Part shown: in pieces, positions 43,577-57,229 of the stretch | Layout of the letters: every line of letters begins with the position of its first letter | Numbering within the stretch: position 1 is the first letter of the stretch | Notes under the pieces: model-generated | Told to the model about the DNA's origin: nothing | Database searches by the model: none | What the model saw: only the letters and a program-made list of their open reading frames with translations | Made by a program: the position numbers and the translations under genes | NCBI RefSeq assembly: GCF_015207425.1 | Contig: NZ_JADEWZ010000008.1 | Location: 1-64,000, forward strand | Length of the DNA stretch: 64,000 bases | From: Lusitaniella coriacea LEGE 07157 | GTDB taxonomy: Bacteria > Cyanobacteriota > Cyanobacteriia > Cyanobacteriales > Spirulinaceae | Direction of reading: 5' to 3'

Positions 43577-45970
43577 TTATCCTCCGAACCCAAAGTCTGC
43601 CCATTCTGTCTCAATTCTTTCTAGGTCTTTCTTTGCGCCGAGTTGGTTCAAGAGGTGGCGTGCGGTTTCGTAGTGAGTTTGGGCGAGGGTGAGGTTGTTG
43701 CGTTGGCGGTAGAGTTGCGCTAAGTCGTAATTCGTTTCGGCAATTCCCCAAGTCATACCGAGTTCTTGCATTCGTTCGAGGGCTTGGGTGAGGAGTTCTT
43801 CCGCTTTGTTGAGATTACCGCGTCCGAGTTCATTTTCCCCCAAACAGCCCCAAGAGGTCGCCATCCCCGCGCGATCGCCCAATTCTTCCCGCAATTGCAG
43901 GGATTGTTGATAAAGGCGCTCGGCATCATCCCAATTCCCCCGATTGCGCTCGATATCTCCTAACACTCCCCAAGAAGAAGCCATCCCCGCGCGATCGCCC
44001 AATTCTTCCCGCAATTGCAGGGATTGTTGATAAAGGCGCTCGGCATCATCCCAATTCCCCCGATTGCGCTCGATATCTCCTAACACTCCCCAAGAGGTCG
44101 CCATCCCCGCGCGATCGCCCAATTCTTCCCGCAATTTTAGGGATTGTCGAAAAAGGCGCTCGGCTTCATCCCAATTTCCTCGATTCCTCTCGATATCTCC
44201 TAAACTCGCCCAAGAGGTCGCCATTCCCGCGCGATCGCCCAATTCTTCCCGCAATTTTAGGGATTGTCGAAAAAGGCGCTCGGCTTCATCCCAATTTCCT
44301 CGATTCCTCTCGATATCTCCTAAACTCGCCCAAGAAGAAGCCATACCCGCGCGATCGCCCAATTCTTCCCGCAATTGCAGGGATTGTCGATAAAGGCGCT
44401 CGGCATCATCCCAATTTCCTCGACTCCTCTCGATATTTCCTAACACTCCCCAAGAAGAAGCCATACCCGCGCGATCGCCCAATTCTTCCTCCACTTGTAA
44501 GCATTGTCGAAAAAGGCGCTCGGCTTCATCCCAATTCCCCCGATTCCTCTCGATATTTCCTAACACTCCCCAAGAAGAAGCCATACCCGCGCGATCGCCC
44601 AATTCTTCCCGCAATTTTAGGGATTGTCGATAAAGGCGCTCCGCTTCATCCCAATTTCCTCGATTCCTCTCGATATCTCCTAAACTCGCCCAAGAAGAAG
44701 CCATACCCGCGCGATCGCCCAATTCTTCCCGCAATTTTAGGGATTGTCGATAAAGGCGCTCCGCTTCATCCCAATTCCCCCGTTTCCTCTCGATATCTCC
44801 TAAACTCGCCCAAGAAGAAGCCATCCCCGCGCGATCGCCCAATTCTTCCCGCAATTTTAGGGATTGTCGAAAAAGGCGCTCCGCTTCATCCCAATTTCCC
44901 CGATTCCTCTCGATATTTCCTAAAGATCCCCAAGAAGTTGCCATCCCCGCGCGATCGCCCAATTCTTCCCGCAATTTTAGGGATTGTCGATAAAGGCGCT
45001 CGGCTTCATCCCAATTTCCCCGAACATTCTCGATATCTCCTAACACTCCCCAAGAAGAAGCCATCCCCGCGCGATCTTCCACTTCCTTGTATAGTTGCAA
45101 TGCCCGTTGTAAATTTGCCTCCGCTCGATTCCAGTCACCGATTTGTTTCCGAATGTAACCCATCCATGACAGGGAAAAGGCTGAGGAGGATTTGCGATTA
45201 GCTTGTTCGTATTGCTGTGCTGCTTCCTGGAGAGACGAAATCGCTAGTTTTACGTCGGTTTCCGGCGTGTTGGATAAACCCCGTTGCACCCTCTCAAAAT
45301 ACGTCTGTCCCAAGGTGTGATACAAACTTCCCAATAATGGAGAATTCGGTTCCAACTGTTTCAATTCATCAATTTGCTGCTGCAATTCTGCAACATCGGC
45401 TAAGGGTTCCGACGCAACGGCTTGGGGAAGTTCGGGGATAACGATATCGTGGGATCGAGTGCGGGGATCGATGGGTTTGAAAAATTCAAACACGCCACCG
45501 CGCCAACTCCAAAAATCCGGTGCTTGGTTTGCCAGTTTTGCGGCGATGGATTCTGTCACCCACACGACGACGGGAAATTGAAAAGCTCGCAGCGCTTCCC
45601 GCGTCCACTGTACGGAAAACAGAAAGCGTTCCAGGGGAGATTTTTTTTCTGTCAGTCGCAAATCGAGAAGATCGCTGGTTCCCAAAATGGTGACAACGGT
45701 TAATTTTCCCAACTCCGACTCTTGTTCGACGAGGGTTTCTAAACTTTCCCGCAGACTGGGTTGAATGCGATCCATTTTGACGCGATAACAACGAACCCCT
45801 TTTTCTGTTAATTCCTTCTCATAAATTTGAACGATTTCATCTCGATAAAGGGGGTTATCGCAGATCGCAATCAGAAGCGAAAGTTTGCCAAAACTCGCCT
45901 GAATTGACAGGATCAACTTGCGCAGGTTGCGTTGATTTTCTCTTTGAGTGTCAATTGCTGAATCTGTCAT
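43577..45970 (-). CDS. TPR protein with degenerate P-loop-like N-terminal domain
   Basis: 797 aa. The N-terminal ~185 residues (LSLLIAICDNPLYRDEIV, VVTILGTSDLL, then APDFWSWRGGVFEF) resemble a STAND/AAA-type NTPase N-half that lacks the GxxxxGKS loop. A helical linker leads to tandem 40-residue TPRs of the NWDEAERLYRQSLKLREELG type: ten nearly identical copies plus diverged ones at each end. It begins 19 bp after the AAA ATPase gene and has AAGGGG before ATG 45970, so the two form an operon. The ATPase may supply the missing P-loop function; that is inference. Confidence 0.85.
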   Translation of the reverse strand: MTDSAIDTQRENQRNLRKLILSIQASFGKLSLLIAICDNPLYRDEIVQIYEKELTEKGVRCYRVKMDRIQPSLRESLETLVEQESELGKLTVVTILGTSDLLDLRLTEKKSPLERFLFSVQWTREALRAFQFPVVVWVTESIAAKLANQAPDFWSWRGGVFEFFKPIDPRTRSHDIVIPELPQAVASEPLADVAELQQQIDELKQLEPNSPLLGSLYHTLGQTYFERVQRGLSNTPETDVKLAISSLQEAAQQYEQANRKSSSAFSLSWMGYIRKQIGDWNRAEANLQRALQLYKEVEDRAGMASSWGVLGDIENVRGNWDEAERLYRQSLKLREELGDRAGMATSWGSLGNIERNRGNWDEAERLFRQSLKLREELGDRAGMASSWASLGDIERKRGNWDEAERLYRQSLKLREELGDRAGMASSWASLGDIERNRGNWDEAERLYRQSLKLREELGDRAGMASSWGVLGNIERNRGNWDEAERLFRQCLQVEEELGDRAGMASSWGVLGNIERSRGNWDDAERLYRQSLQLREELGDRAGMASSWASLGDIERNRGNWDEAERLFRQSLKLREELGDRAGMATSWASLGDIERNRGNWDEAERLFRQSLKLREELGDRAGMATSWGVLGDIERNRGNWDDAERLYQQSLQLREELGDRAGMASSWGVLGDIERNRGNWDDAERLYQQSLQLREELGDRAGMATSWGCLGENELGRGNLNKAEELLTQALERMQELGMTWGIAETNYDLAQLYRQRNNLTLAQTHYETARHLLNQLGAKKDLERIETEWADFGFGG
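43838..45070 (-). repeat. ten near-identical 120-bp repeats inside the TPR gene
   Basis: Each 120-bp unit contains one CGCGCGATCGCCC and GCTTCATCCCAATTTCC-type segment. Differences between units are mainly in a few codons (GVLGDIER / ASLGDIER; Y/F), indicating recent unit duplication or gene conversion. Confidence 0.95.
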
Positions 45971-45989: not shown

Positions 45990-47282
45990 TCAAGATTCAA
46001 TGAGTTCTTCTCGCCGCAAAAGTTCGATAACGATGGGATGAACGTCGTACCACAGGGCATCATTTTCGTACTCCAAAACCATTAGTCCATGCAGCAATTT
46101 GATAAATCCTTCTCCTTCCGCAGGCTTGAGGGTTTTGTAAACTTCCGCTAACATTTCGTACAACTGTCTCGAACCAACTTGCCGCGCAAAATCATTCCGC
46201 AAATTGCGGAGCGCCGTTGATAAAATTTCGTCGTTAATTTTAATATCGTCGCAATCGGAATCGATTTCTAATTGCACCATGCATTCCGTACAGCACTCTC
46301 GCCCGATGCGCACTAATTCTCGAATCACTCCGCCACTCATTAAGATCGTTTTCTTGGCAATTTCTGGAGATAAAAGTCCCGGCGGAAATCGTTTTTCAAG
46401 GACTCTCTCGAACAATTTAATATTCTTTTCAATGGGTTGGGCGTTAGGGCTGCGACAATCTTGATTGGAGTAAAATTTAGTGACGGGGAAAAGGTGCGGG
46501 CGAACAATACCTTCAGAGTTCAATGCGCCCATGACTCGCGGTTCTTGAATCGCGGCAATGGGAATGGTAAAAACAATTTTGAATCCCGGCGAAAATAACG
46601 CTTTGAGGTTGTTGCGATAAATTGGTTCGATAATGTTTAAATCGAGTTTATCTAAGTCATCAATAATAACGAGAACGGGTCTTTTGGTTGCATTTTGAAT
46701 TGTCGCAGCGAGAAGGTCGAGATTGCGAACTAGTTCGGAGAGTTTTTTCTCATAAGTTCGTTCTAATTCTTTACGGAACTTTTGCTCTCGCTGTAACTTC
46801 AGGCTAATAAATTTAAAAATATCGACCCCGCCCAATCCCGTTTCGGCTGTTGTTTCTTGTTCAACTGCTTCTGTTTCTGTTGTATTCATCCAGTCCAACA
46901 GCGATCGTTTGATACTATCTGCAATGGGAATTCTTAACTTAGACGCTCGACTCAAAAGCATCAAGCCAATGGCATACAAAATGTTGACATGACTGACATC
47001 AGACATCTCAATTAAGTCAGAAATGGAGAAAAAGATCGAAAAGTACTTGTCTGCCATTTCCACGCTCAAGCGCTTGAGAAGCGTCGATTTGCCGCAACCT
47101 CGGTGTCCCGCAAAAATCACTTTTCCATCGGATGTGGAGGCTTCTATCTCTCGCTTGAGTCGCACGAGAACCGGACGACCGTATTCAACCCGAAACTTTT
47201 CGATATTTTCGGGTTCGATGAGGGGAAACAAATCTAAGTCCTGATAGGCTTGCTGCAACTGTTTCAGTCGTTCTTCGTTCAT
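45990..47282 (-). CDS. AAA-type P-loop ATPase
   Basis: 430 aa. Walker A GHRGCGKST at 59-67, a long charged helical insert (about 135-195), Walker B VLVIIDDLD at 203-211, a sensor-1-like segment (KIVFTIPIAAIQ), then a winged-helix-like C-terminus (VLEYENDALWYDVHPIVIELL). It resembles the MSP/STAND-like ATPases that act with separate sensor or effector proteins. The TPR gene downstream is its likely partner. ATG 47282. Confidence 0.88.
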   Translation of the reverse strand: MNEERLKQLQQAYQDLDLFPLIEPENIEKFRVEYGRPVLVRLKREIEASTSDGKVIFAGHRGCGKSTLLKRLSVEMADKYFSIFFSISDLIEMSDVSHVNILYAIGLMLLSRASKLRIPIADSIKRSLLDWMNTTETEAVEQETTAETGLGGVDIFKFISLKLQREQKFRKELERTYEKKLSELVRNLDLLAATIQNATKRPVLVIIDDLDKLDLNIIEPIYRNNLKALFSPGFKIVFTIPIAAIQEPRVMGALNSEGIVRPHLFPVTKFYSNQDCRSPNAQPIEKNIKLFERVLEKRFPPGLLSPEIAKKTILMSGGVIRELVRIGRECCTECMVQLEIDSDCDDIKINDEILSTALRNLRNDFARQVGSRQLYEMLAEVYKTLKPAEGEGFIKLLHGLMVLEYENDALWYDVHPIVIELLRREELIES

Positions 47283-51814: not shown

Positions 51815-52714
51815 TTACCCATCTTCAGCCTCTAAACGTCGCTCGATTTGAGAAATTGCTAACGCGATCGCCTTTTTAACGCTCTCTTCCGATTCCTCGG
51901 TCATTGCGTTCTGTAGTGGTTCAATCGTCGCGCGATCGCCCATTTTCATCAAAGCAAGGGCTGCTGATTTCCGGGTTTCTCCGTTCTCGTGATGCAAAGA
52001 CTCAAGTAGCTTGGGTATTGCAGGCTGATAATTGAGTTTTCCCAATGCTGCCGCCGCCTCGCTGCGAACATTGACCGCAGGATCTTCTAGGGAATTAACC
52101 AAAATCTTAAATGCTCTCTCCTCCGGATCCCCCTCAGCAATATTGGAAATCGCCCCGACAACTGCCGCGCGAACGGTTGCAAAATCGGAAGATATTTCTT
52201 GGTAAATTGCCTCCTTCGCCTCTGCGCCAATAAATGCTAGCGCCCACGCTGCATGACCTTTCATGCTTTCTGGGTGCTGCGATGAGGCTAAAATCTCAAT
52301 GAGTACGGGTACGGAAGCTTCTCCTATCCGGGCAAGCGCCCCCACAGACGAACCTTTAACGACTGTATCCTCGTCCTTCAAGAGTGCGTCGATTAACGAG
52401 GGAATCGAACTGGGATCTGCAATCAGCGTTAAGGTTTTCGCACAAGCGCGTCGTACCACGGGATTTGAGTGATGGGTCAAACCCTCAACTAACTCCGGAA
52501 CTGCCGGTTTGCCAATTTCGCCCAGTGTTTCGGCTATTCTCAATCTCACCATTCCTCGCGAATCGGCAAAACTTTCAACCAATTGTTTTAAAGTCGCGCG
52601 ATCGGTTGAATCGAATGTATTCGATGCTTGTTGTTCGTTGACCCGTCGAACGAGTTTGTCTACCTTTGCTTGAGAGACGTTGAGATCGCCTTCCGTATTT
52701 AGACCGTGATTCAT
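51815..52714 (-). CDS. HEAT-repeat protein of the PBS lyase type (CpeF/MpeV-like candidate)
   Basis: 299 aa, six or so HEAT-like repeats (GKPAVPELVEGLTHHSNPVVRR, PSSIPSLIDALLKDEDT-type; EDPAVNVRSEAAAALGKLNY). Such proteins include E/F-type bilin lyases (CpcE/F, CpeY/Z, CpeF) that attach or isomerise bilins on phycobiliproteins. Size and its place at the end of the cpe run fit CpeF/MpeV, but HEAT proteins are hard to separate by eye. ATG 52714. Confidence 0.8.
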   Translation of the reverse strand: MNHGLNTEGDLNVSQAKVDKLVRRVNEQQASNTFDSTDRATLKQLVESFADSRGMVRLRIAETLGEIGKPAVPELVEGLTHHSNPVVRRACAKTLTLIADPSSIPSLIDALLKDEDTVVKGSSVGALARIGEASVPVLIEILASSQHPESMKGHAAWALAFIGAEAKEAIYQEISSDFATVRAAVVGAISNIAEGDPEERAFKILVNSLEDPAVNVRSEAAAALGKLNYQPAIPKLLESLHHENGETRKSAALALMKMGDRATIEPLQNAMTEESEESVKKAIALAISQIERRLEAEDG

Positions 52715-52765: not shown

Positions 52766-53500
52766 TTAGCGCCGAAATGTCCGATAGCGCCATTTATTGA
52801 TTTGCATTTCGCCAAATCTTGCTAGGTGTTGCAATTGCGTGATTTCTTGCTCTAGTGACTCAATTTGATTGCTCTGTTTTTGGATTAACTGTTGAGCGTC
52901 ATCGGGGAGAACGCATTGCGCTGTTAAAATTTCCAAATCCTGTTGCAATTCATCAATACGAATAGATTTTTTCGCCAGTTCATCCTGTCGTGACTGAGCG
53001 ATCTCGTTTTGGTGAGAGATTAATAATTTTTTCTCCTTGAGTTGCTCTTGTGAATCGACTATTTGTTCTGCTTGACTTTTGTTGTTTTGCCGTAGCGCTT
53101 GATTGATTTGAGTTTGCCGATCGTTTAAGACTTGATGTTGACTAAGTTGATGCTGTAGATCGGCAAATTGCTGTTGTAGTTGGGCGAGTTCGCTTTTTAA
53201 TTGAGTGATGGCTCTGTTTTCTTCTTTTGTCTGCTGCGTTCTTGAAGTTTCGTTCCTTGCTTCTTGAGTTTGAGAGATGATGTTGATTTCGATTTCTTCT
53301 ACTCGTTCTGGAGTCTGAATTTTTTGAAGTGCGATTGTTGTCTTAGCCGAAGGGCTGGCAACCGCGATCGCGCCGCTCACAATTTGCTCGACCAACGCAG
53401 ACCGAGATAAGCCCGTTTCTTTCGCCATTCGACCTAACCCATCGATTGCGGTCGGACTGAGAGAAACTCTAAATCGCGATTGACTTTCTAAAGACTTCAT
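52766..53500 (-). CDS. ribbon-helix-helix-like, coiled-coil protein sharing a tail motif with the adjacent linker
   Basis: 244 aa from ATG 53500 (MKSLESQSRF); the extra N-terminus of the longer frame is poor. Residues 5-45 look like a ribbon-helix-helix unit (SRFRVSLSPTAIDGLGRMAK, then ETGLSRSALVEQIV). Residues 80-222 are a long Q/E/L-rich coiled-coil. The C-terminus (202-244) contains LARFGEMQINKWRYRTF, nearly the same as the end of the linker encoded just upstream. I do not recognise a characterised family. Position in the cpe run suggests a regulatory or assembly role at the phycobilisome. Confidence 0.75.
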   Translation of the reverse strand: MKSLESQSRFRVSLSPTAIDGLGRMAKETGLSRSALVEQIVSGAIAVASPSAKTTIALQKIQTPERVEEIEINIISQTQEARNETSRTQQTKEENRAITQLKSELAQLQQQFADLQHQLSQHQVLNDRQTQINQALRQNNKSQAEQIVDSQEQLKEKKLLISHQNEIAQSRQDELAKKSIRIDELQQDLEILTAQCVLPDDAQQLIQKQSNQIESLEQEITQLQHLARFGEMQINKWRYRTFRR

Positions 53501-53608
53501 CGTAGGGTAGTATGTTGACTCGTGACTAACATGATCTTCAAACAAGCTATGAGAACAGTATATTGCGCCATAGCTTTGTCTGAAGAAACCTTTAACATTT
53601 AACAAGTT

Positions 53609-54682
53609 TTAGAAAAATGTACGACTGCGCCATTTATTGAGTTTTGCCTCTCCAATCGTTGCAAAGCGTTGAGCTTCTAAAATTTCTTGTTCGAGGGTAG
53701 CAATTGTCTCGGCTTGTTCTTTAGATTGACGCTGAAGTGCTTCGTAGCTGTCCGCTATTTCTGTTTCTTGTTGAGCCTCCACTTGCCAACCGGGGACGAA
53801 ACGACTTGGTTCGCTGGGAGTAGAAGTAGAAGATTGCCACGCGCTTAAGTAAGCAGAACCAATCGAGGCAAAGGGTTTTAAATCCGATAGCCGTTCTTGC
53901 AGCACCGCGATCGCGCGATCCTGTTCTTGGCACTTCTGTTTGAGAGATTGATAGGCTTGTACGGACGTAACAGAAGTTGATGGGGGAGTGTATTTTTTTG
54001 CTTTGGGTTTGAGGGCGGCGGCAATCGGCGAAGGAGACTGCGCCCGCGAGAGAGGAATAACAGTACTGGGCGTATTGGTCGCGATCGCTTTGTTGAGTCG
54101 AGATTGGGTTCCACCAAAGCTAGAACGATCGCTGCTGCAAGCGCCGCGCAACAGTTGGAAGAGGTGAGTAAAACCGACTAAACTTTTTCCCGTCTGGGTT
54201 TTATAGCCTCGGTAATAGGGAACAATATTCTCGCCAAAATTCTGTTGATATTCATCGCTATCGAGATAAGTATCAATCTCTGCCTCAAAACCCCCTTCAT
54301 CAAGAATTTGGCTGTGAGCCTTCATTTCTTCATAACTGTCTGGAGCGCGACCCAGCAAGTGTTTAAAATTTAATTCAATAAAGCGGTAACGGGGAGAACT
54401 CTCGAAAAAACGCTCGCGATACAGGTCGGATTTTGCCACTTGCCGAACGAACTCGCGAACAGTTATTTCACCATTTTTAAGCTTAGATTCCGGGACGACA
54501 AGTCGCTCGCTTTCCATCACGTAAGCGTTCCCTAACACTTGTCGATAAACTGCTCGAATTACTGTCTCAATTTCTTGATGAGAATCAAATAAACTCGCAT
54601 TAAATGGTTCTGTTTCTTCAAACAAACTAATTCCTAATTGCGAGGCTTGAGTTGTCACAGGATTTATGAAACGACTAACCAT
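53609..54682 (-). CDS. phycobilisome rod linker with duplicated coiled-coil C-terminal module
   Basis: 357 aa. The pfam00427-type linker domain (about 35-180) is complete: [40 protein letters not shown] and [20 protein letters not shown]. Residues 185-243 are low-complexity Ser/Pro. Two copies of a 42-residue module follow, at 244-285 and 313-354, each a short coiled-coil ending in FA-x-I-G-x-A-x-L-x-x-W. No CpcD domain is present. It probably connects phycoerythrin discs. ATG 54682; 27 bp after cpeR. CpeC or CpeD equivalent not decided. Confidence 0.85.
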
Positions 54683-54709: not shown

Positions 54710-55042
54710 TTAACAACGTTCGTCAAATCGAGTATAAAAGCTGCCGTACTTAATCCAATATTGTTTCAGACCGTGGTGCGGCGTATGCAAACTTGCCTTG
54801 GCTTGATAAAGAATGACTTGGCGATGCGTGCCAATCCAAACTTTGTTGATGGGTTCAACCGAAATTAGCGTTCCTCCTAAGCTAGCAACACATTCAGAAA
54901 ATCGCTCAACCGCAGAGTATTCGACGGTTTCAAAGATAAAAAAATTGCCGACGCAAATAAGATGCCGACTGCGAATCCAGGTTTGCATTTTTTTGCAAGC
55001 TGCTGGGGGTAACATGACTTTTTTCAACTCTACGCTCGGCAT
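54710..55042 (-). CDS. cpeR: CpeR, activator of phycoerythrin genes
   Basis: 110 aa from ATG 55042 (ATG 55015, MLPPAACKK, is an alternative start). Characteristic sequence KKMQTWIRSRHLICVGNFFI, then SVEPINKVWIGTHRQVILYQ and KYGSFYTRFDER. In Fremyella CpeR, last gene of cpeCDESTR, is needed to express cpeBA. Here it follows cpeT by 22 bp, keeping the S-T-R order. Confidence 0.93.
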   Translation of the reverse strand: MPSVELKKVMLPPAACKKMQTWIRSRHLICVGNFFIFETVEYSAVERFSECVASLGGTLISVEPINKVWIGTHRQVILYQAKASLHTPHHGLKQYWIKYGSFYTRFDERC

Positions 55043-55064: not shown

Positions 55065-55694
55065 TTATTCAATGGATTGGGTTGGGACTTCATTGGCAAA
55101 ACTTTGCCATTTTTCAAAACGTAAAGGACCTGCTGCCGAACCCCAAACTTGTTCGTGGGTATTAATATCCAAACCTCGGTCTGAGCTTACCCAAGTTTGC
55201 TCGGTTAGTTCGACTTCGCTGACTAAATAAGTTTGGTGACCTCGTTTTTCAATGGAGCATTGATTGCCCGGTTCGACGCTGCCGCGAAACATTTCGCCAT
55301 CCCTTTGAAAAATCATCGAACAGTGGTAGCGTCGCTGGATGCAATCGGGGGTAATTGAGCGAAGAATGTCTAATTCTCGCGCTGCTCCGGCATAGCGCAG
55401 GCGGTCGGTTAGACTATAATTTTCAATGTAAATCCGATCGCCCCAATCGACTAATCGATGAATGCCTTGGCGATAAGGTGTCCAAAGATCGTGGTCGTAA
55501 ACTTGTTCTGAATAGAAGCCAATGGTATTAAAAAATGAAACGGGTAAGGGACGAAAAAAAATGCGGATATGTGCGTAAGTCGCGGGTTGGTCAAAGGCTT
55601 GTTTTTGGTTGCTAAAATCCCCTGCCATCCAACGGGCTAAGGTGACCATTAGCTCGCTATGTTGTGCTTCTATATCCAGGCGCGGTTGACTCAT
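55065..55694 (-). CDS. cpeT: CpcT/CpeT-type chromophore lyase
   Basis: 209 aa. Conserved sequence IRIFFRPLPVSFFNTIGFYS, YDHDLWTPYRQGIHRL, RRYHCSMIFQ, FRGSVEPGNQC and VSSDRGLDI. T-type lyases attach bilins to Cys-153/165-type sites of beta subunits. Placement between cpeS and cpeR supports a phycoerythrin target. ATG 55694. Confidence 0.93.
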   Translation of the reverse strand: MSQPRLDIEAQHSELMVTLARWMAGDFSNQKQAFDQPATYAHIRIFFRPLPVSFFNTIGFYSEQVYDHDLWTPYRQGIHRLVDWGDRIYIENYSLTDRLRYAGAARELDILRSITPDCIQRRYHCSMIFQRDGEMFRGSVEPGNQCSIEKRGHQTYLVSEVELTEQTWVSSDRGLDINTHEQVWGSAAGPLRFEKWQSFANEVPTQSIE

Positions 55695-55719: not shown

Positions 55720-56253
55720 TTATTGACCGGACAAGGAACGAATTTCTGAAGAAAAAGAAGCCGTTACAACTCCAGATCCAGCACTGGTTTTAATCAGCGA
55801 TACGCGCAATCGCAAGTTGGGGGTTGCAAACCAAATTTTTTCTTCTGCGGTAGCGCGATCGTATTCAGTAGAAAGTGTAAATGTTCCGTTTTCGCTAATA
55901 CAATACTGCCCGATTGAGGGAATGGTTTCTGCGTATCCGCGATCGCGCAGAAGTTTACCTTGTGCGGGGTTATCAGCGTCAGGAATCGGTACGAGAACGG
56001 TCGTACCTTGGGAGGCTTCATTCTCATCCCAATCAGACTCTCCTTCCCAGCTCATACGAAAAGGAGCGACTGCGGTAGCCGGATCGATGTTGTTGGACTT
56101 ACACAGCGCGATCGCGTCAGGATCGTTTGGGTCTAAAGCAACAATGTCAATCGTGGATATTACCTGCTCAAAATGAGCAAAAGCAAGGTGATGAGCGCTG
56201 CGCTGCGAACGCCAGCGTCCCAAGGAAAGTTCCACAAATTTGGTAATATCCAT
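55720..56253 (-). CDS. cpeS: CpcS/CpeS-type phycobiliprotein lyase
   Basis: 177 aa, lipocalin-like fold. FVELSLGRWRSQRSAHHLAF, WEGESDWDENEAS, LLRDRGYAETIPSIGQYCI and WFATPNLRLRVSLIK are typical. S-type lyases attach bilins to Cys-82/84-type sites. It opens the S-T-R run, 25 bp before cpeT. The Asp/Trp pair in ESDWDEN and Arg in RDRGYAE are retained. ATG 56253. Confidence 0.92.
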   Translation of the reverse strand: MDITKFVELSLGRWRSQRSAHHLAFAHFEQVISTIDIVALDPNDPDAIALCKSNNIDPATAVAPFRMSWEGESDWDENEASQGTTVLVPIPDADNPAQGKLLRDRGYAETIPSIGQYCISENGTFTLSTEYDRATAEEKIWFATPNLRLRVSLIKTSAGSGVVTASFSSEIRSLSGQ

Positions 56254-56470: not shown

Positions 56471-57229
56471 CTAGGAGACCTCAGTAATACTGAGAATTTT
56501 GCCGCCGGTCTTTTGAATGTTTTGAATTTTCTGGGAGAGTTGATTGTAAGAAACTTCAACAACGGCGTTGCTTTGGCGCACGCGAGGGCCAGAACCGACT
56601 TGAGATACGGCGATGCGGAAACGCTTGCTCCTCGTGCCAGAAGAAGCGCCTCTTGCTGGAGACGAGATTTTCGTCGGGCGATTCCCTGCAACGTCGCTAA
56701 TGAGTTTAGCGCGACCGCCGAGGGAACTACTGGCATAGCCACGCATGATGGCAAAGGTACGATTGAAGCCTACATTTTTAATCCCTGCTTGGCTGCGATT
56801 TCCGCGAGTGTAGGGAACGGTATTTTCGCCAAAATTATCGAGATATTCTTCGCTATTAAGATAAGAATCAATCTCGGCATCGTAACCCTGTTCGTTGTAA
56901 ATGCAAACGTGCTGGGAAATTTCTGCTTGGTCTTGGGGAGCGCGTCCGAGGAAATGCTTGAAGTTTAGCTCAATAAAGCGATACGGGGAAGAATATTCAA
57001 AGTAGCGAGACTTATAGAAGTCGGACTTGGCAATGGATTCGATAAATCCGCGCACTGTAATATCGCCGTTGCGCAATTGCGATTCTGCACTGGAAAAGCG
57101 TTCGCTCTGCAATAAGTGCGGATTGCCGAGGACTTGGCGGTACACTGCTCGAATGATAACTTGCAAGTCTTCTTCACTTGCATTAGGACGTAGTTCAATG
57201 GGGTCAGCATCAGCGATCCACAATGACAT
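56471..57229 (-). CDS. cpeE: phycobilisome rod linker with C-terminal CpcD domain (CpeE-like)
   Basis: 252 aa. Linker domain (about 20-150: [53 protein letters not shown]) and a C-terminal CpcD domain (about 195-252, RFRIAVSQVGSGPRVRQSNA and the KILSITEVS end). Immediately upstream of cpeS, the position of cpeE in cpeCDESTR; that is the basis for the symbol, not a residue-level assignment. ATG 57229. Confidence 0.85.
   Translation of the reverse strand: MSLWIADADPIELRPNASEEDLQVIIRAVYRQVLGNPHLLQSERFSSAESQLRNGDITVRGFIESIAKSDFYKSRYFEYSSPYRFIELNFKHFLGRAPQDQAEISQHVCIYNEQGYDAEIDSYLNSEEYLDNFGENTVPYTRGNRSQAGIKNVGFNRTFAIMRGYASSSLGGRAKLISDVAGNRPTKISSPARGASSGTRSKRFRIAVSQVGSGPRVRQSNAVVEVSYNQLSQKIQNIQKTGGKILSITEVS

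Follow-up and report, generated by a model that had tools for sequence, protein, structure and literature searches.

A C-terminal tail shared by a phycobilisome rod linker and a ribbon-helix-helix coiled-coil protein of cyanobacteria, and its possible role as an anchor

A rod linker of Lusitaniella coriacea LEGE 07157 and the protein encoded next to it, which carries a ribbon-helix-helix (RHH) head and a long coiled coil, end in the same C-terminal tail, and comparison of the sequences indicates that this shared tail is real, being neither a chance match nor a generic coiled-coil end. We tentatively propose, at a probability of about 0.4, that the tail serves specifically as an anchoring or docking helix, by which rod-end linkers and the RHH protein come together at one site, probably at the thylakoid membrane. 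Both genes lie in the window, by which we mean the whole 64,000-nucleotide stretch of contig NZ_JADEWZ010000008.1 that was analysed.

On the minus strand of the window, a rod linker of the ordinary type, with PF00427 and the CpcD-like domain PF01383 in the domain scan (56471..57229), is followed by a CpeS-family gene (55720..56253, PF09367), a CpeT-family gene (55065..55694, PF06206), a gene that we take to be CpeR-like (54710..55042), the tailed phycobilisome (PBS) rod linker directly downstream of it (53609..54682), the gene for the RHH protein (52766..53500), and a HEAT-repeat protein (51815..52714) that is bilin-lyase-like by sub-threshold NCBIfam matches. The CpeR-like protein gave weak, unconvincing matches in Pfam and none in NCBIfam, and was itself matched in 84 of the 195 genomes of the order. 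We read the RHH gene from the ATG at 53500, upstream of which there is an in-frame TTG at 53605. The frame is open after the linker stop (53605-53611) and, being the same frame, continues into the RHH gene; this coincidence has a one-in-three chance and may be meaningless. Elsewhere in the window, inspection by eye showed a 797-aa protein (43577-45970) with many near-identical repeats of the form EELGDRAGMASSWGxLGxIERxRGNWDEAERL, adjoined by an ATPase-like gene (45990-47282).

The shared tail and its anatomy

The initial annotation had described one module in the linker and in the next protein, with NKWR-x-RTF as the match common to both C-termini, and had placed two copies in the linker, all of which agrees with our reading. 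Copy 1 (residues 244-285, 53828..53953) has a degenerate core and runs from Y244 to W282, while copy 2, placed at residues 313-354 and extending to residue 357 as the C-terminal tail (53612..53746), runs from Y313 to W351 and ends NKWRSRTFF. In the RHH protein, which is 244 aa long, the tail occupies residues 202-244 (52769..52897), and the C-terminus reads ...LARFGEMQINKWRYRTFRR.

Used as a single query, the RHH protein found the linker tail of its own genome (E 4.5e-5). It also found those of no fewer than six other genomes (G010, G028, G036, G061, G117 and G127) at E 5.7e-7 to 9.7e-4, in frames that were separately identified as PBS linkers. This search, which gave matches in 46 of 148 genomes, used no motif and is hence independent of the motif-based selection described below. 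With the linker as query, matches in more than 10 other genomes extended from the N-terminal part to residue 356. Among the 176 tail-bearing open reading frames (ORFs) of the collected loci, 82 were PBS linkers, 77 were RHH-headed and 17 fell in neither class, several of the last being cut by contig ends or broken; the last profile match lay within at most one residue of the C-terminus in 169 of the 176.

At E < 1e-5, the full-tail profile of the linkers found 56 of 61 RHH tails and that of the RHH proteins found 67 of 69 linker tails. This cross-class test is not fully independent, because a profile of 20 tails (A1), or a subset of it, had served to gather the later loci. The Trp, basic and Gly columns are moreover conserved by construction, because the members of A1 were initially selected with a regular expression demanding a Trp, adjacent basic residues and an upstream Gly. 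At E < 0.01, the 17-residue core profile of the RHH class found 67 of 69 linker tails, and that of the linker class found 39 of 61 RHH tails, rising to 50 when the limit was relaxed to E < 1. We find it hardly credible that generic coiled-coil ends have come to look alike by convergence. Coiled coils do give widespread weak matches, as in the Pfam listings for these proteins; however, the conserved core occupies the final 17 residues, and, of 13,983 ORFs, not one that was unrelated reached E < 1 with either core profile (best E 1.3 and 5.1), so that the core-only profiles led us to reject this explanation. A generic coiled-coil end was also the outcome that the initial annotation had named as speaking against itself, and it is not what we found: the core profiles cross-match, and the tail is enriched near PBS genes (see below).

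AlphaFold2 predicted each linker copy as a single helix, so the "coiled coil plus W-R end" of the first description is one helix in these models. Aligned on the Trp, the heptad reads I-24, L-21, I-17, A/L-14, A-10, G-7, L-3, W0, and it persists through the conserved A, G, L and W of the core A-x-(I/V)-G-E-x-x-L-N-K-W-R. Taken whole, the module is a coiled coil capped by a basic end that has small core residues and a Trp. The tail had a mean net charge of +3.9 in 69 linkers and +2.1 in 51 RHH proteins, compared with -1.3 and -0.4 for the preceding coil. Mean hydrophobic moment was 0.26 and 0.33 for the tail, no higher than the 0.33 and 0.35 of the preceding coil, and was lower still in the two tails of the window (0.14 and 0.13). 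Amphipathicity of the tail is thus only suggestive, and its lipid score rests on charge.

The closest relative of the window linker's tail was an RHH tail, with 64% identity. A tree of the tails (42 columns, 114 rows) had 5 changes of class label, of which the starred branches force 1, and one transfer and several were indistinguishable on it. Against solved structures, the 46 hits of the tail profile at E <= 1 were mostly coiled coils and included no PBS chain. A description of the tail was not found in a search of the full-text literature whose reach left out most subscription papers.

The tailed linker and the RHH coiled-coil protein

The linker is 357 aa long and carries one PF00427 domain (residues 34-158, 54209..54583, E 2.5e-54); the domain scan of the window protein found no CpcD-like PF01383. 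Single-domain tailed linkers in general gave the same picture, with PF00427 present in 34 of 34 and PF01383 in 0 of 34 at E <= 0.001. In the AlphaFold2 model (mean pLDDT 64.3, pTM 0.42), a folded PF00427 domain leads through a low-confidence stretch to two long helices, 239-283 and 310-356, whose middle blocks have pLDDT 71-84. One PF00427-like domain was present in 54 of the 82 tailed linkers, two in 27 and seven in 1, and two module copies reached the core in 65 of the 82 and only one in 17. The seven-domain example, from a genome of the window's order (L105:3318-9344, G078:C113), is a 2008-aa frame with the same tail (PF00427 bit score 1119.5), and exceeds the 1182-aa CpcN chain in length. 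We conclude that the tailed linker is a new variant of rod linker.

Like the CpcC and CpeC rod linkers, the window linker has PF00427 and the stretch that follows it, and its best single-domain PDB match was the 32.1 kDa phycocyanin rod linker 7veb_Z (residues 9-216, E 7e-65); unlike them, it has two long helices in place of PF01383. CpcL, a linker with a C-terminal anchor, is nearest to the tailed linker in design, although not in sequence, its chains being matched by the window linker at only about 1e-23. CpcL is described as the rod-membrane linker of rod-shaped PBS, with a C-terminal transmembrane (TM) helix, and cpcL as being found with phycoerythrin genes in Nostoc punctiforme (PMC12461855). 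Whereas CpcL ends in that TM helix, the window linker ends in a basic coiled-coil tail: no C-terminal TM helix was seen in its last 60 residues, which read as charged throughout and were modelled as a helix with heptads. Against CpcG, its best score was 119.5 bits, below the curated NCBIfam cut-off of 420.

CpcJ, CpcN, Glr2806 and Glr1262 of the Gloeobacteria resemble 28 of the 82 tailed linkers in having several PF00427 domains; the window linker differs from the multi-domain CpcJ and CpcN in having one. Their best matched stretches end at or before residue 249 of the window linker, which is before the tail core. CpcN is described as carrying five PF00427 domains without a CpcD-like one, two CpcJ linkers join four hexamers, and a CpcN homologue of more than 50% identity was found only in Candidatus Aurora (PMC10696076).

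The RHH-like N-terminus proposed for the second protein was borne out, since 12 of the 22 scanned family members matched RHH_1 at E <= 0.01 (best 1.9e-7) and the top Foldseek hits were RHH proteins; the initial annotation had considered the lack of an RHH fold to be fatal to its claim. RHH_3 was matched by 10 of the 22 at the same limit. In the window protein, the head (residues 9-41, 53378..53476) matched RHH_1 at E 8.8e-4, and its 19.6 bits were borderline, 0.9 bits under the curated Pfam cut-off of 20.5. The AlphaFold2 model (mean pLDDT 82.0, pTM 0.42) has helices at residues 16-29, 33-42, 76-195 and 200-242, with no strand assigned in the head of this single chain; the third helix is the long coiled coil (52916..53275, pLDDT mostly >90), and the fourth is the tail. 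Foldseek with this model ranked Arc, VapBC, YiiF, VapBC and Arc as its top five (best E 0.25, probability 0.95), with nothing at E <= 0.001. By sequence, the closest RHH-fold protein in the PDB was CopG at E 0.063, ranked behind coiled-coil SIR4 matches at 0.013. In the Pfam and NCBIfam scans, these proteins matched no specific family model beyond the general RHH ones, and a plasmid collection gave no match to the RHH protein. One core-reaching module copy was present in 70 of the 77 RHH proteins. A third architecture, in which the coiled coil and tail come after a basic N-terminus and no RHH was detected, occurs at three loci (L021, L091 and L164), and at L091 this gene is the next marker gene after cpeS-cpeT-cpeR.

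RHH domains are dimers, and RHH proteins usually bind DNA. We consider it improbable, nonetheless, that the protein regulates transcription of PBS genes in the manner of CopG, oligomerising through its tail and being titrated by the tailed linker, so that expression would follow antenna assembly. CopG uses R, T and T as contacts, and at these places a strand of the usual form K-(V/S)-K-(V/L)-G-(I/L/V)-S-L-T-P, preceded by a basic arm M-x-(K/R)-K-x-R, is common among 64 distinct sequences. Long RHH proteins (frames of 185-893 aa at E <= 1e-8, with frames >1000 aa excluded) are also commoner in CpeR-positive genomes, at 49 of 84, than in negative ones, at 21 of 111 (p 1.6e-8). FciC of marine Synechococcus furthermore sets a precedent for RHH proteins in the vicinity of phycoerythrin genes: it is a 55-67 aa RHH protein encoded beside the phycobilin lyase gene mpeZ, with a suggested role in regulation (PMC3877281). 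The window protein shares its RHH head with FciC and with CopG and Arc, and differs from them in the long coiled-coil stalk followed by a tail or, in its relatives, a membrane helix. Against the regulator, CopG-like repressors rarely have stalks of 120 or more residues or span a membrane; there are tailed-linker genomes with no long RHH protein (see below); and the window protein itself has no basic arm, although it keeps R-F-R-V-S-L-S.

What stands at the C-terminus of the RHH proteins gave the strongest hint to function. Distinct RHH proteins with a length of 150 aa or more number 85, of which 57 have the tail at the C-terminus and 12, from 9 genomes, a TM helix; a further 10 are cut by the locus end, some of these being short copies of genes that are whole elsewhere, and 6 have neither. 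These 6 comprise four broken frames (N runs or frameshifts), one diverged tail (L017) and one doubtful short ORF (L235), and no clear third kind of C-terminus was seen among the intact RHH proteins. The TM-ended form was found in a member of the Prochloraceae (L071 = L173) and in its genus mate (L025, whose protein missed the E limit and is not among the 12), in Pleurocapsales LEGE 06147 (L145), with two RHH genes in a row, and in survey family f20, in all seven genomes where the RHH C-terminus was seen (G057, G078, G095, G111, G127, G141 and G167). In three genomes (L227, L232 and L233), it lies 291-782 bases downstream of cpeS-cpeT-cpeR with no other marker gene between them, and at other loci it follows the tailed linker. 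The lineages concerned retain the tail on the linker. Because the TM helix stands where the tail is missing on the RHH protein, this swap suggests that the tail is an anchor, a function left out of the initial annotation.

Distribution and gene context

The observation is wider than was first seen from the window alone. The A1 profile matched 85 of 195 genomes of the order and, in a phylum-wide draw, 25 of 194, of which 24 belong to the same order (the window's own genome included) and 1 to the same class. A peptide-pattern scan of the named collection (84,980 species) gave 94 stretches, 91 of which were confirmed; the best 80 of these 91 form our named loci, and their genera are Nostoc, Komarekiella, Calothrix, Mastigocoleus, Hormoscilla, Symploca, Geitlerinema, Pleurocapsa, Microcoleus, Tychonema and others. 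One record labelled Candidatus Gracilibacteria (L166) holds a cyanobacterial CpeR-like gene and a tailed linker, and is probably a mis-binned contig.

A CpeR-like gene was found in 26 of the 27 tailed-linker genomes, which were named by hand from the search listings, compared with 84 of 195 overall (Fisher p 4e-10). In the remaining one, G017, genes of phycocyanin or phycoerythrocyanin type and a rod linker precede the tailed linker (L073). The module had first been taken for a tag of phycoerythrin rods, and as such it did not hold up, because 58 of the 85 tail genomes have no tailed linker and 28 of these 58 have no CpeR-like hit either. These 28 genomes and the cluster type of the G017 linker led us to reject a phycoerythrin-only module.

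The expected enrichment of the tail near PBS genes was clear for tailed proteins other than linkers, with a PBS gene within 9 kb at 36 of 56 loci compared with 1 of 20 control regions, the latter being hand-chosen round positions in 20 genomes (Fisher p 2.4e-6). At 25 of the 36 loci, no tailed linker was in reach; at the other 20 of the 56 there was no PBS-set gene in reach, although two of these had bilin-reductase fragments. Such genes follow cpeS-cpeT at five loci (L084, L088, L114, L115 and L118) and stand beside CpeS-family genes near cpc-type genes at others (e.g., L068, L122 and L123, the neighbour at L122 having been checked by Pfam). In Tychonema and Microcoleus, tailed proteins come after two PebA/PebB-type bilin-reductase genes, with full-length frames in L190, L192, L196 and L200. 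At eight further loci, several of Microcoleus/Tychonema type (L174, L184, L186, L188, L191, L199, L030 and L094), the PebA/PebB-type matches beside the RHH gene are short fragments. The adjoining RHH genes mostly have whole frames, and the RHH gene seems to persist after phycoerythrobilin synthesis has been lost.

At several loci with no CpeR-like gene in reach, RHH genes adjoin CpeS-family genes, two of which were checked as PF09367. This would suit a tail that binds a common soluble PBS component, such as the core cylinder, a lyase or a hexamer face, with the TM forms as an unrelated lineage-specific change, and CpcG, too, attaches through its C-terminal part. We regard this as quite improbable, since it leaves unexplained why intact RHH proteins end only in a tail or a TM helix, and the structure hits of the tail profile contain no PBS chain.

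Of 27 tailed linkers in the survey, 13 had a CpeR-like gene no more than 1.5 kb upstream, and 14 had an RHH coiled-coil gene on the same strand no more than 2 kb downstream; for the named loci, which overlap the surveyed ones in some genomes so that the counts are not added together, the figures were 48 of 55 and 11 of 55. At Nostoc loci with a whole linker, the linker follows the CpeR-like gene, and no RHH gene comes after it. At the level of genomes, a long RHH protein was present in 20 of 27 with a tailed linker compared with 50 of 168 others (p 1.8e-5), and G061 is a 21st, whose RHH protein has diverged (L025). No long RHH protein was found in the other six (G010, G054, G117, G121, G143 and G177), nor in six named genomes, mostly Nostoc relatives, that were chosen for having no RHH gene beside the linker. 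A set of 16 tailed-linker genomes in which no tailed RHH protein was seen, which is no measure of co-occurrence because it was picked for that lack, comprised four with a long frame (G078, G097, G127 and G167), nine with only short ones (<=119 aa) and three with none. Because some tailed-linker genomes show only short RHH frames or none, we conclude that the linker tail works in some genomes without an RHH partner, or with an undetected one.

These counts bear on direct pairing, in which the linker tails would form a heteromeric coiled coil with the adjacent RHH tail and the RHH protein would be a rod-bound scaffold. The neighbouring genes at 14 of 27 tailed linkers, the co-occurrence in 20 of 27 genomes, the presence of one module in both proteins, its heptad core with small residues and a Trp, and the 64% identity between the window linker's tail and an RHH tail are all as such pairing would have it. 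The co-occurrence, however, is mostly explained by CpeR: among CpeR-positive genomes alone, a long RHH protein was present in 19 of 26 with a tailed linker and in 30 of 58 without (p 0.09). Direct pairing is also at odds with the 58 of 85 tail genomes that have no tailed linker, with the six surveyed and six (picked) named genomes that have no long RHH protein, and with the TM lineages, in which the RHH protein is tail-less and the linker tail is retained. On balance, we judge it somewhat unlikely. The shared heteromeric coiled coil of the initial annotation thus keeps the support of co-occurrence, but an exclusive linker-RHH pair is unlikely because of the six of 27 genomes and the TM lineages just mentioned, while its shared docking-type module is supported as real.

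A possible anchor at the rod end

If the tail is an anchoring helix, as we prefer, the tailed linker would be placed at the end of a pigment rod, because PF00427 binds a hexamer and the CpcD-like domain, which usually makes contact with the next one, is missing; its two helices would protrude from the rod. These helices may fix the rod end at the thylakoid membrane or at a membrane-bound partner, and the linker would then work like CpcL by other means. The RHH protein would dimerise through its heads and bear, on a long coiled-coil stalk, two tails or two membrane helices; it may be fixed at the site of the linker tails as a scaffold or regulator of PBS building. Because linkers (probably monomers) mostly have two copies and RHH dimers would likewise present two tails, the functional unit may be a tail pair.

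In favor of anchoring, the tail ends two PBS-linked families, is basic, forms one heptad with the coil and has a TM helix in its place on some RHH proteins; its positive charge, while no proof of a membrane surface, fits one and is suggestive. Several observations nevertheless tell against this reading. A heptad coiled coil is no less suited to a protein partner than to a lipid surface, and the hydrophobic moment of the tail does not exceed that of the preceding coil. The replacement of tail by TM helix is seen on the RHH protein only, the linkers of the TM lineages keeping the tail; 17 of the 82 linkers have a single core-reaching copy; and 20 of the 56 tailed non-linker loci have no PBS-set gene in reach.

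An anchoring tail on the RHH protein also leaves room for a DNA-to-membrane tether, which we see as very much a long shot. Its heads would hold the PBS gene cluster, its stalk would span the gap and its tail or TM helix would sit at the thylakoid, with tailed linkers gathering there by the same tail. If this were true, antenna genes would be expressed where rods are built, and tailed linkers would be a second, coiled-coil kind of rod-membrane linker. These ideas are practical to test, because tailed linkers occur in several Nostoc strains of culture collections. The shared tail, or the TM helix in its place, offers a concrete anchor that bears on how phycoerythrin-rich rods are held, and on how antenna gene clusters, lyases and linkers are coordinated.
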